Assembly (NCBI RefSeq): GCF_018873765.1
Contig: NC_057916.1
Coordinates: 14,032,001-14,096,000, forward strand
Direction: 5' to 3'
DNA: 64,000 nt
Origin: Telopea speciosissima
Taxonomy: Eukaryota; Streptophyta; Magnoliopsida; Proteales; Proteaceae
The translations under genes and the position numbers were made by a program. The notes under the pieces were generated by a model that was not told where the DNA came from, made no database searches, and worked only from the letters and a program-made list of their open reading frames with translations. Below are positions 24,359 through 49,769 of the stretch, in pieces (within the stretch, counting starts at the first letter, position 1; every line of letters begins with the position of its first letter).

Positions 24359-27758
<3,400 letters not shown>

Positions 27759-32702: not shown

Positions 32703-32861
32703 GAATCGTTATCCTCTCCTGTTACAGCACGATATTGTATTGCATCGTGCGGCGTTGCTGAGACCATGTGGCACAACGGGCCCCACATGTTGCACATGGC
32801 CTCTGCAGTTGCCGCACGATACAGTACAGCACCGTACAGTTACAACATAGGATAAAAATTT
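32703..32861. mobile_element. Foldback MITE, family B, copy 2
   Basis: 159 bp. Left end GAATCGTTATCCTCTCCTGT, right end ACAACATAGGATAAAAATTT. The arms are complementary around GGCCATGTG-type core words. Flanked by GTCTGATGG (32694-32702) and GTCTTATGG (32862-32870), a 9-bp duplication with one mismatch. Confidence 0.75.
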
Positions 32862-36761: not shown

Positions 36762-36867
36762 ATGTTGGGGATGGATACTACTTGGATTGCCCAAAACCGA
36801 TGGTTATACTCTGTTCGAGGGTTTTCTGAGATCATTCATAATAATCCATAACTCTTTATTTCCCTTG

Positions 36868-37020
36868 GGAAGCAGTTTTCTGTTAGAGAGTGTGGCCTAC
36901 GCCAGCACTCACATGTGTCTATCTCTCTCTTCCTTAAAACAAGGGGGCAGAGGTGTCTTTTCACATCAAGAGGAGAGAGATAGACTCATGGGAGTGCTAG
37001 CATAGGCCACACTCCCAAAC
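36868..37020. mobile_element. Foldback element, family D, copy 1
   Basis: Left arm GAGAGTGTGGCCTACGCCAG and CACTCACATGTGTCTATCTC; right arm is its near-complement, with a loop around AAAACAAGGGGGCAGAGG. The outermost bases are uncertain. It is the uninterrupted counterpart of 37318-37622. Confidence 0.7.
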
Positions 37021-37121
37021 AGAGATCTTTTTCCCATTTCTCTTTTATCTTCTTTGAATGAAGACCGCGACAGTGTGGAAGAATTAAAATCTTTGGCACG
37101 TGCAATCAGCCGCCGGCAAAG

Positions 37122-37257
37122 AGACTAGGATCCTCTGCAGTATCGGCGGGGCAACAGTGCACATCCGACGGCACAACAGAGGCCATGTGTGCCATGTATG
37201 CCACATGGCCTCTGTTGTGCACTGTCGCCCCGCCGGTACTGCAGAGAATTTTAATAC
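37122..37257. mobile_element. Foldback MITE, family B, copy 3
   Basis: 136 bp with CTCTGCAGTATCGGCGGGGC at the left and its complement at the right. Central words CAGAGGCCATGTG and CACATGGCCTCTG are as in other family B members. Flanked by CCGGCAAAG at 37113-37121 and 37258-37266, an exact 9-bp duplication. Confidence 0.8.
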
Positions 37258-37317
37258 CCGGCAAAGGCACTGATGTAGATCCACGAATCCCTATTTCTCT
37301 CACTCTCTATCGCTGAC

Positions 37318-37622
37318 ACAGTAGTTTCCTGTCCGAGAGTGTGACCTACGCCAGCACTCCTATGTGTCTAACTCTCTCCTCTTCAAAACAAGGGGGTGTC
37401 TTGAATTTTTATCCTCTCCTGTTACTGCACGGTGCAGTATTGCATCGTGTGGCGTTGCAGAGGCCATGTGGGACCCACTCTGCAGCCGCCGCATGATGCA
37501 TTACTACACCGTGCAGTAACGGGAGAGGACAACGATTCGGGGTGTCTTTTCATATGAGGAGGAGAGAGATAGATTCATGGGAGTGCTGGCGTAGGCCACA
37601 CTCCCAGACAGAGAACTTTCTC
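37318..37622. mobile_element. Foldback element, family D, copy 2, interrupted
   Basis: The two arms (GAGAGTGTGACCTACGCCAG at the left, the complement ending at CACACTCCCAGACAGAG at the right) match 36868-37020. Its loop is split by a family B element at 37403-37539. Confidence 0.8.
37403..37539. mobile_element. Foldback MITE, family B, copy 4, nested
   Basis: Lies inside the loop of a family D element. Left end GAATTTTTATCCTCTCCTGT, right end GGGAGAGGACAACGATTC. Flanked on both sides by GGGTGTCTT (37394-37402 and 37540-37548; 10 bp if one more G is counted). The unfilled site is visible in family D copy 1. Confidence 0.88.
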
Positions 37623-37654
37623 CTTATTAAAATTTTGGGTAAAAGAATTTGACA

Positions 37655-37839
37655 ATGCAGATCGTCTACGGCCCAGCTGCCCGTAGCAGCCTGTCCGACG
37701 CAGATTGGGTCACGTGCTCAATGACCGCCTTACCCCCTGCCCAGCGCCTTGCTCAGGAGTAAGGCAGTCATTGCACGCACGGCCCTGTCACGTTGCACAA
37801 GCTGCTACGGGCAACTGGGCCGTAGGAGATCTGGATCCA
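37655..37839. mobile_element. Foldback MITE, family A, copy 4
   Basis: Arms GTCTACGGCCCAGCTGCCCG then TAGCAGC, and complement. The core has CAATGACCGCCTTACCCC and GTAAGGCAGTCATTGC. Target duplication not clear. Confidence 0.75.
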
Positions 37840-38631
37840 GAGGTACATAAAATTATTCAAACAACGAGGGTTACTTGTAATTGAACCAAATTATAGGAGA
37901 GATACATATAATTTGCTCAGGAGTAGAAGTCAAGGTATGTCACCATGGCTTCCCATCAACTGCCAAACTACAAGAGTACCACCCAAATTACATTACAATA
38001 TTATGGTAATCATAATCAAAGAAACTTTGGTCTATCATGTGCATGGCCTCAAATCATAATCATAATAGGGTTATTTATTATCTCTCGCATTTCATAGCAT
38101 GAAAACAAGATGTGGCAATGAACTCAGGCTGGTCTTCTTCACAGTGCCAGACTTGATAATGTCAATGAACTCAGGCTGATCAAATGGTGAAAAGGGGGGC
38201 CAAAGGGAGAAACATCAGAAATCTATTGCAAATATATACAACAAAACCAGGGGGGAAACTAAATATAAATTGAAGAAAAGAACTATAAATGCCGGGGAAT
38301 AATTTGAACCCTTAAAAGTTATTTTTCTAAGTGTGCATTTCATTTGCTATTGTTTTTTTGGTTGGGGGGTTGGGGGGAGGGAGAGGGGGTGGGAAATCAC
38401 CTTTAGGGAAGCTCCACCAACCGAAAATCCATCAACGTTGATCTGATGAGTTTGCTATTAGGAACAATCAGATGGGCTCGACCCCATACTCCCCTTGATC
38501 TGATGTCGATTGAGAGAGTTAAAAGAGTTAAGGGCAGGCTTAAACTGACCATAAATGAGGTTGTGAAGCATCACATGTATAGCCTGGGCCTCCTACCAAG
38601 TATGACCTCAAATAGAACCTATTAGAGGGCA

Positions 38632-42547: not shown

Positions 42548-43289
42548 TCAAACTTGGATGATTTGATAAAATAGAGTGGTAGATTGATTGAATAATTGTT
42601 GACCTGATCTTGAGATACGATGAGTGAATCGTCGTCGGTGGTACTGTTTCATTGAATCGCTCTCTGCAGCCTTTCCACCAAGCTTCTTCTTCCTGCTCTC
42701 TCTTTCAAAAATCTCAGTTTCCCTTCTTGTTTGCAAGTTTGTTGGGAGGCCTACTACCTTCTCATACCCACTCTCACCATCAAAATTAGAAACCATGAAA
42801 GTGGAATCCCCTCCATACTGAAAAATAAGAATGTCCCCTGTCTTCAGAGAGTGAAAACCAACAAAATCTCTCCAACCCTTTTGAAAAACCAAGTCTTCAC
42901 CTCTTTCTTCTACTCCAATGCTCCATGATTTACCACTCATACTGTTCTTAAGAGTTACAGTTTTTTTTACTAGTTGTTCTCTGAACTTGGAGACAATATT
43001 TCTTGGAATAACCTAATAAAAGTAATGATATATAAGAAATTAATTAACCCATTTCAATTTCAGGTAGAAGAATAAAATGGAAGAATCACATTGGATCTTG
43101 TGGAAGAAAAGAAAGGGAAAAAAAATAATAATGAAGATCAAACAAGAAACTAATAAAATTGAAGATTAGAAAATGTACCAATCCAAGATCAGGTGTGAGA
43201 ATCCTGCAGAAACGGATTTGAGTGGCTTCAAGATCGTTCCAATACCAATATTCTTGCCAATGCTTGCATTCCATGCATTTGTGTTCCAT
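42548..43289 (-). CDS. B3-domain DNA-binding protein
   Basis: Plant-specific nuclear transcription-factor type, REM-like. Exon 1 43179-43289 and exon 2 42548-43012 give 191 residues; the junction is phase 0. Residues 1-26 hold two CxxC-like spacings (HKCMECKHW). The B3 fold runs from about residue 27 (FCRILTPDLGLVIPRNIV) through WSIGVEERGEDLVFQKGW and FVGFHSLKTGDILIFQYGG to FMVSNFDGE near residue 105. A basic tail follows. The length is short for a REM protein, and only one B3 domain is present. A donor-like G then GTCAAC near 42600 and an acceptor before 42470 would give a different C-terminus (TRRRVISFGNT), so the last 20 residues are uncertain. Target DNA and role cannot be read from sequence. 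Confidence 0.8.
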
Positions 43290-47805: not shown

Positions 47806-48640
47806 GGAATCTCTCCCTCTTTCAACTCTCAATTTCTGTTCTTGAATCTGGAGCCCAATTCAGAGTTTCAGACACCAATTACAGTTATATAATTAACGTC
47901 TTCTGCTCTCTCTCCTTCTCTTGTTCTTCTTGTAACCTCGGATCCAGCTGGCTTTATTTACTCCTCCTTCCAAGTGTAAGCTGAAATTTCATATTCATTA
48001 TCTTTCCACTTCAATTAAGAAACTCATTTATAGTTGCAAGACACATTTTAGGACTTGAAGAGAGAGAGAGAGAGAGAGAGAGAGATATGTGTTTGGAGGT
48101 TTTTTAAGGGAGAAACAAAGCTACCTGGTCGAGTGCCGTGCGTGCCCTTGTGGCCACGTCAAATGATTATCGTGTCTTTAGAAATTTCTAATTTTCATGG
48201 GGTCATGACAGTCATTTTATGCGGGCCTACGTTTGGGTGTAGAGACCATGTGCTGCGAGTCTATGACCACGTAGTATTTTTTTTCCTTTTTTTTACTATA
48301 TATAGTATTACGAGAGAGTTCTCTGCCTGGCAGCATGGCCTACAATGGTGCAAGGGCCAATCATAGTTCGTCCAAGAGCATCAACAAGAACAGATCTTTT
48401 ACATCCACTGGGTAGGGCTGTCATTGCACCTCCTTTTGTACGTAGACACCAGGATGTCATGTAGGGTTCTTTTCCCTACATGAATGGGATTTTTTTATTT
48501 CACAAGGGATTGGATGGTAATATTTCACGCTCATTTGTCTAGGGTGCAGGGGTTATCTGACCGGGGCAGCATTTTTTTTTTTCCGAATAATTATTGGAAT
48601 GGGATTGAATTGAAAGGAATTGAATTAAATAGAATAGAAT
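47806..48640. other. MES17-A upstream region
   Basis: Leader and promoter of copy A. Includes a (GA)n tract at about 48058-48085. The first part matches the leader of copy B (55980-56230), with CTTCTGCTCTCTCTCC and CTCCTCCTTCCAAGTGTA in both. Confidence 0.5.
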
Positions 48641-49769
48641 GATACAATAATTAAGATATATGTGTAGGCCGCACAAGAGGATATCCTTGGAAATTGGTGT
48701 TTTGTCATCAATTACATTACATCTGCTATACAACTCGAAATAATTGTCCCCACGATATATGGTTGCAATTTGTTGCAAATAAAATGATTAACTTTTTTTT
48801 GATAAACAATAAAAAAAAAAATTTGATAGTGATTCACTACGTACTATATATATTATGTGAGAATGTTAATGATACAATAATTAAGATATATGTGTAAGCC
48901 GGACAAGAGGATATCCTTGGAAATTGGTGTTTTGTCATCGATTACATTACTTCTACCATATAACTCAAAATAATTGTCCCCACGATATATGGTTGCATTT
49001 TGTTGCAAATAAAATGATTAACTTTTTTTTGATAAACAATAAAAAAAAATCGAAAGTGATTCACTACGTACTATATTATGAGAGAATGTTAATGATACAA
49101 TAATTAAGATATATGTGTAGGCCGGACAAGAGGATATCCTTGGAAATTGGTGTTTTGTCATCGATTACATTACATCTGCTATACAACTCGAAATAATTGT
49201 CCCCACGATATATGGTTGCAATTTGTTGCAAATAAAATGATTAACTTTTTTTTGATAAACAATAAAAAAAAAAATTTGAAAGTGATTCACTACGTACTAT
49301 ATTATGTGAGAATGTTAATGATACAATAATTAGGATATATGTGTAGGCCGGACAAGAGGATATCCTTGGAAATTGGTGTTTTGTCATCGATTACATTACA
49401 TCTGCTATACAACTCGAAATAATTGTCCCCACGATATATGGTTGTATTTTGTTGCAAATAAAATGATTAACTTTTTTTTGATAAACAATAAAAAAAAAAT
49501 TTGAAAGTGATTCACTACGTACTATATTATGTGAGAATGTTAATGATACAATAATTAGGATATATGTGTAGGCCGGACAAGAGGATATCCTTAGAAATTG
49601 GTGTTTGTCATCGATTACATTACATCTGCTATACAACTCGAAATAATTGTCCCCACGATATATGGTTGTATTTTGTTACAAATAAAATGATTAACTTTTT
49701 TTTGATAAACAATAAAAAAAAAAAAAATTTGAAAGTGATTCACTACGTACTATATTATGTGAGAATGTT
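48641..49769. repeat. Five-unit tandem satellite, about 226 bp per unit
   Basis: Units begin GATACAATAATTAAGATATA at 48641, 48871, 49094, 49320 and 49545 (periods 230, 223, 226, 225) and end GAGAATGTT. Each has the same internal landmarks (GGACAAGAGGATATCCTTGG, CCCCACGATATATGGTTG, CTTTTTTTTGATAAACAATA). Units differ mainly in the length of A and T runs. Unit B of the duplication retains only a short remnant near 56895-56930. Confidence 0.92.

Follow-up and report, generated by a model that had tools for sequence, protein, structure and literature searches.

The locus examined here raises the question of whether two small foldback elements, one lying in the loop of the other, moved as a single unit or arrived separately, and, if separately, in which order and by means of which transposase. 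The window, i.e. the whole stretch of 64,000 nucleotides that was analysed, comprises positions 14032001-14096000 of chromosome C1 of Telopea speciosissima (assembly of 822,943,500 bases, ~823 Mb). The plant-specific LOB domain has 94 matches in this assembly and 0 in 14 control genomes, as expected for a land plant; the three controls named are prokaryotes, which makes this control a weak one. Between 36.87 and 37.84 kb it contains five foldback elements of four families (D, C, D with B inside, and E), all five with inverted arms that are 84-85% complementary (Table 1). A family B element lies in the loop of D copy 2 between perfect 10-bp direct repeats. This agrees with an earlier note on the locus, which had described the nesting and a target duplication of 9-10 bp; its end point for B (37539) is one base too far, and the repeat, written there with 9 bp, has 10 bp when B is delimited by its ends GAAT...ATTC. 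B was inserted into a pre-existing D at the window locus, and the nested pair is an ordinary nested MITE insertion of a well-known kind.

Table 1. Foldback elements of the window and their target-site duplications.
Feature	Window position	Strand	Arms (complementarity)	Remarks
D copy 1, left 9-bp duplication ATTTCCCTT	36858..36866	+		
Family D copy 1, uninterrupted	36867..37035	+	36866-36932/36970-37036 (84%)	169 bp; ends GGGAA...TTCCC
D copy 1, right 9-bp duplication ATTTCTCTT	37036..37044	+		one mismatch
Family C MITE	37122..37257	+		CCGGCAAAG at 37113-37121 and 37258-37266
Outer MITE, family D copy 2, broken by B	37320..37623	+	37323-37385/37555-37617 (84%)	
Left target-site duplication of inner B, GGGGTGTCTT	37393..37402	+		
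Inner MITE, family B	37403..37538	+	37403-37454/37487-37538 (85%)	136 bp; ends GAAT...ATTC; family consensus 159 bp
Right target-site duplication of inner B, GGGGTGTCTT	37539..37548	+		
D copy 2, right duplication TATTAAAAT	37625-37633			deduced from the L089 paralogue
Family E MITE	37653..37838	+		absent from paralogous segment L090; own duplication 5/9 here
Second window copy of family B	32703..32861	+		159 bp if the end is 32861 (last base changed)

The earlier note had taken the nearby uninterrupted D copy 1, with a span of 36868-37020, to show the pre-insertion site. The element extends beyond that span on both sides and has a 9-bp duplication of its own, and it is not the exact empty site, because D copy 2 lacks 6 loop bp that are present in D copy 1. 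The exact site is instead provided by a paralogous segment located 7.8 Mb from the window locus on the same chromosome and in inverted orientation (L089/L090). L089 is a D copy without B at C1:21900280-21900520 on the reverse strand, and its loop is of the same subtype as that of D copy 2: the 6 bp present in D copy 1 and in the other 29 aligned copies are missing from both. When the window flanks are joined minus B and one duplication, an exact match of 28 bases to L089 runs across the junction. Over the 3.2 kb of L090, collinear pieces of homology to the window extend between 37320 and 38211 and leave out both B and E; stretches of L090 of up to ~540 bases are unmatched in the window. A search with 37840-38215 returned 51 candidates, and among the best 40, which were scored, L090 was the best match for the segment as a whole (92%, 90% and 97% over three pieces). 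The ~79 bases immediately right of E (37840-37918) are a dispersed repeat, most of the listed places having 79-90% identity, so this part alone would not prove paralogy. Weaker partial matches occur on C1 near 24.6 and 27.3 Mb, and we therefore appear to be dealing with a small group of related segments. On the basis of these sequence comparisons, we treat L090 as a paralogue with D in place ahead of B and E; since L090 has the same D without B and without E, D preceded both at the window locus. The divergence from the respective consensus, 7.4% for the window B and 11.0% for D copy 2, agrees with this order.

The left terminal bases and the left target duplication of D copy 2 are gone, and its right end is kept. 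The D of L089 is flanked by TATTCAAAT and CATTAAAAT, which match at 7/9 positions, and the window has TATTAAAAT on the right. The start of homology between the window and L090, at 37319/37320, coincides with the left margin of D copy 2, and no homology was found left of this copy in the comparison with the 3.2-kb L090. A rearrangement breakpoint at the MITE is possible.

The empty paralogue also bears on the reading that B and D are one composite moving as a unit, to which their co-occurrence at the window locus lends itself. L089 carries D without B, and a blastn comparison with one D copy placed 0 of the other 27 B loci inside a D; two of these loci (L018 and L026) have a whole or fragmentary D within 1.5 kb. 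No second B-in-D composite was present among the best 40 scored of 4376 candidates, and the 30 fetched D copies, one of which is the window's, match 167-169 of 169 bases without B, in a search that favours uninterrupted copies. With other B copies lying outside D and no second composite, the composite unit was rejected as far as sampled, and we regard it as exceedingly improbable. Families B and D are dispersed, independent units. The earlier note had named two outcomes that would speak against its reading, the two palindromes always occurring as one unit and direct repeats without a constant length; neither was seen in our samples, the repeats being of near-constant length (9-10 bp for B, 9 bp for D).

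If B had a preference for palindrome loops, i.e. for cruciform or hairpin DNA, as a target, the nesting would not be accidental. The target at the window locus does sit in the middle of a strongly folding palindrome (-75.8 kcal/mol), and none of 60 flanking controls was as stable. However, at 27 B sites including the window's, a median fraction of 0.38 of the flanking segments equalled or exceeded the site in stability, with values of 0.05 or less at two sites, one of them the window locus, and of 0.1 or less at five. As foldback DNA is not enriched over these sites, the preference is not supported, and we consider it very improbable.

The duplications of family B were followed across the genome. 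The search with B gave 842 first-look candidates, of which the best 40 were scored, and a 23-base pattern of the B end occurred 294 times (reversed pattern, 0). The sample consisted of 41 sites, namely 39 of the 40 scored places together with L091 and L114, which were picked from the pattern search; L029 (truncated) and L092 (a B end) were left out, and L027 is the same place as L018. Both ends were intact in 26 of the 41 sites. Among these, the best duplication length was 9 bp in 13 copies, 10 bp in 11, 11 bp in one and 12 bp in one, the last being spurious (6/12 matches, one copy). Thus, 25 of the 26 had a best length of 9-11 bp; perfect duplications were 9-mers in eight copies and 10-mers in seven, and at most one mismatch was found in 21. 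When left and right flanks of different B copies were cross-paired, 4000 draws yielded no perfect 10-mer and no repeat of at least 9 bp that was perfect or had a single mismatch. The duplications are 53% A/T, compared to 61% in the flanks. Element length was 135-159 bp in 25 of the 26 intact copies and 333 bp in one. The second B copy of the window is flanked by GTCTGATGG and GTCTTATGG (8/9 matching).

The 333-bp copy (L091, C3:22861560-22862040) was suspected to hold a D element, but its extra length turned out to come from a tandem expansion within B, the units of which measure ~87 bp by eye; the copy is bounded by a perfect 10-bp duplication, GAATAGCGTG.

For family D, 3419 first-look candidates were obtained and the best 40 scored. 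Intact ends were present in 23 of the 30 fetched copies, all 23 with a length of 169 bp, and the best duplication length was 9 bp in 21 of them; L047 and L057 departed from this, the latter lying in a poly-A tract. Counted over 9 bp, the duplication was perfect in 17 of the 23 copies, and all but L044 and L047 (21 of 23) had no more than one mismatch. The cross-paired flank control reached this level (9 bp, at most one mismatch) in 1.8% of cases, the D flanks being A/T-rich. A/T makes up 95% of the D duplications and 61% of the flanks, and many D targets are A/T-rich without being strict repeats.

Arrays of D were seen at two places. At L093 (C9:5474650-5475350), three D copies adjoin in a TA tract, two in a row and a third that is diverged and inverted; the array at L094 (C3:9515000-9515660) consists of an inverted D, a D-like relative and a D. 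The search with family C gave 667 candidates (best 40 scored), and its duplication CCGGCAAAG is known from the window copy alone. The loop of C shares the word CAGAGGCCATGTG with B, a sequence likeness hinting at an exchange of loop modules. Family E (L095-L101) has a length of 186-190 bp and ends CAATGCAGATC.../...GATCTGGATCC; six of its seven fetched copies have perfect 9-bp duplications and the seventh one of 8/10, and the window copy has none intact.

The earlier note had further proposed that D was active before B. For the window locus, this is borne out by the paralogous D without B. It does not carry over to the families in general: the mean divergence from consensus was 5.7% for sampled D (n=29) and 8.5% for sampled B (n=24), both samples being biased towards close relatives of the window copies. 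Sampled D is not more diverged than sampled B, so the family-wide claim is not supported; moreover, a single nesting dates one pair of insertions and hence gives no order at the family level. Since all B and D copies but two were chosen as best matches to the window's own copies, the rates and divergences reported here are not those of the whole families.

As to the machinery, the Mutator-type integrase suggested earlier fits the duplication lengths (9-10 bp for B, 9 bp for D) and the inverted ends; no transposase-bearing element with these ends appeared in partial searches. Both families have duplications in the range described for Mutator-like elements (8-11 bp, mostly 9) and the often-long terminal inverted repeats of this group, with arms of 52-67 nt that are 84-85% complementary in B and both D copies. 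Being short, non-coding, of high copy number and of near-uniform length, B and D qualify as MITEs. An assignment to another cut-and-paste superfamily with 8-10-bp duplications, such as hAT or Merlin-like elements, would be compatible with the lack of a transposase linked to B or D ends. The hAT duplication is 8 bp, and this was the best length in one of 23 D copies, one lying in a poly-A tract, and in none of 26 B copies. In addition, plant MULEs are described as having long foldback arms and duplications of 8-11 bp, above all 9 (PMC4486113, PMC5907723), so that we hold another superfamily to be very improbable and retain the MULE assignment.

A profile search for the MULE domain gave 827 candidates, and all of the best 150, which were scored, lay over the curated cut-off; by hand count, 44 of these 150 are in open frames of 600 aa or more. 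The domain was also matched in three of 14 control genomes, the three controls named being prokaryotes, and it also occurs in domesticated plant genes. The number of matches is therefore not a number of transposons, and FAR1-type domesticated host genes may be among the matches. Partial searches by ends found no coding element that shares B or D ends. Thirty-four D-like ends (control, 1) are not followed by the usual MITE interior, and most of these places resemble, by eye, a MITE with an internal deletion. Two B-like ends are without the usual interior (control, 0); reading each over 3 kb revealed neither a good partner end nor an open frame of at least 120 codons. When part of the listed B and D places was compared by eye with the 150 listed MULE-domain places, the nearest pairs noticed lay ~15-17 kb apart.

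We propose the following multistep scenario, which we consider very probable as a whole: (i) a D element entered an ancestral segment at a TATTAAAAT-like target; (ii) this segment was later duplicated, its nearest relative now lying 7.8 Mb away in inverted orientation; (iii) in the window copy, B then entered the loop of D through a staggered cut of 10 bp that duplicated GGGGTGTCTT, and E inserted in the right flank; (iv) B and D, which at ~160 bp cannot encode a transposase, were most likely moved by a MULE transposase made elsewhere in the genome. We infer the transposase class, its supply in trans and the cut-and-paste mode from these features; no coding partner was found, so mobilisation in trans is itself a deduction. 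A more far-reaching reading, in which D would be a microsatellite-targeted MULE MITE with many copies that seed recombination, the homology to L090 starting at D copy 2 as if a rearrangement had broken there, and the transposase of B would cut with a stagger that is not fixed, yielding 9 and 10 bp with about the same frequency, appears unlikely to us.

Tm1 is reportedly a Mutator/Foldback element of nematodes. The available text of PMC12595863 contains no mention of nesting. Related systems are described in four papers. MuTAnT of Medicago truncatula is a small foldback Mutator-like element with G-run ends, 9-bp duplications and TA-rich targets (PMC4486113), in which family D resembles it. However, the ends differ by eye (GGGGTTTGCTAGAACA against GGGAAGCAGTTTTCTGT, MuTAnT being compared via its mask), and a putative autonomous partner is reported for MuTAnT, whereas none was found here for D (PMC4486113). 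SaTar elements of guayule and rice are non-autonomous MULEs with microsatellite targets, end-to-end arrays and 10-bp duplications (PMC5907723). The D copies at L093 and the array at L094 resemble these arrays, and 11 of the 26 B copies have a duplication of that length. In contrast, SaTar arrays are reported there as uniformly non-nested, while D is here broken by B, and the SaTar families are at least 380 bp long among those listed (PMC5907723), B and D being far shorter. Two duplication lengths in one family, as in B with 9 and 10 bp, are also known from Muta1 of Aedes aegypti, for which 60 events in yeast gave 8 bp in 21 cases and 9 bp in 39 (PMC5225508); Muta1, however, is an autonomous animal element, and its lengths are one base shorter than those of B. 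In maize and rice MULEs, for which the criterion of an 8-11-bp duplication was used, other elements including a MITE are inserted (PMC3903597); the hosts in those cases are coding MULEs and the MITE named is Tourist-like, whereas the host in the window is a MITE, D. A literature search with five end words of the families gave no match in the papers searched. B and D are new families for which no published name was found, of a kind, nesting and target habits already known.

The window locus is unusually readable in that the occupied site, a perfect duplication and a paralogous empty site are present in one assembly, and with all three at hand, neither the order nor the junctions have to be reconstructed from a consensus. 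The near-equal split between 9 and 10 bp in family B could serve to test how MULE transposases set the stagger. Rfam at gathering scores gave no match. Elsewhere in the window, a 226-bp unit is repeated five times in tandem at 48638-49769 (95% matches). Eight open frames were scanned, and those at 24359-27755 and 42548-42937 match a protein kinase domain, a kinase C-terminal domain and a B3 DNA-binding domain, so the window carries genes.
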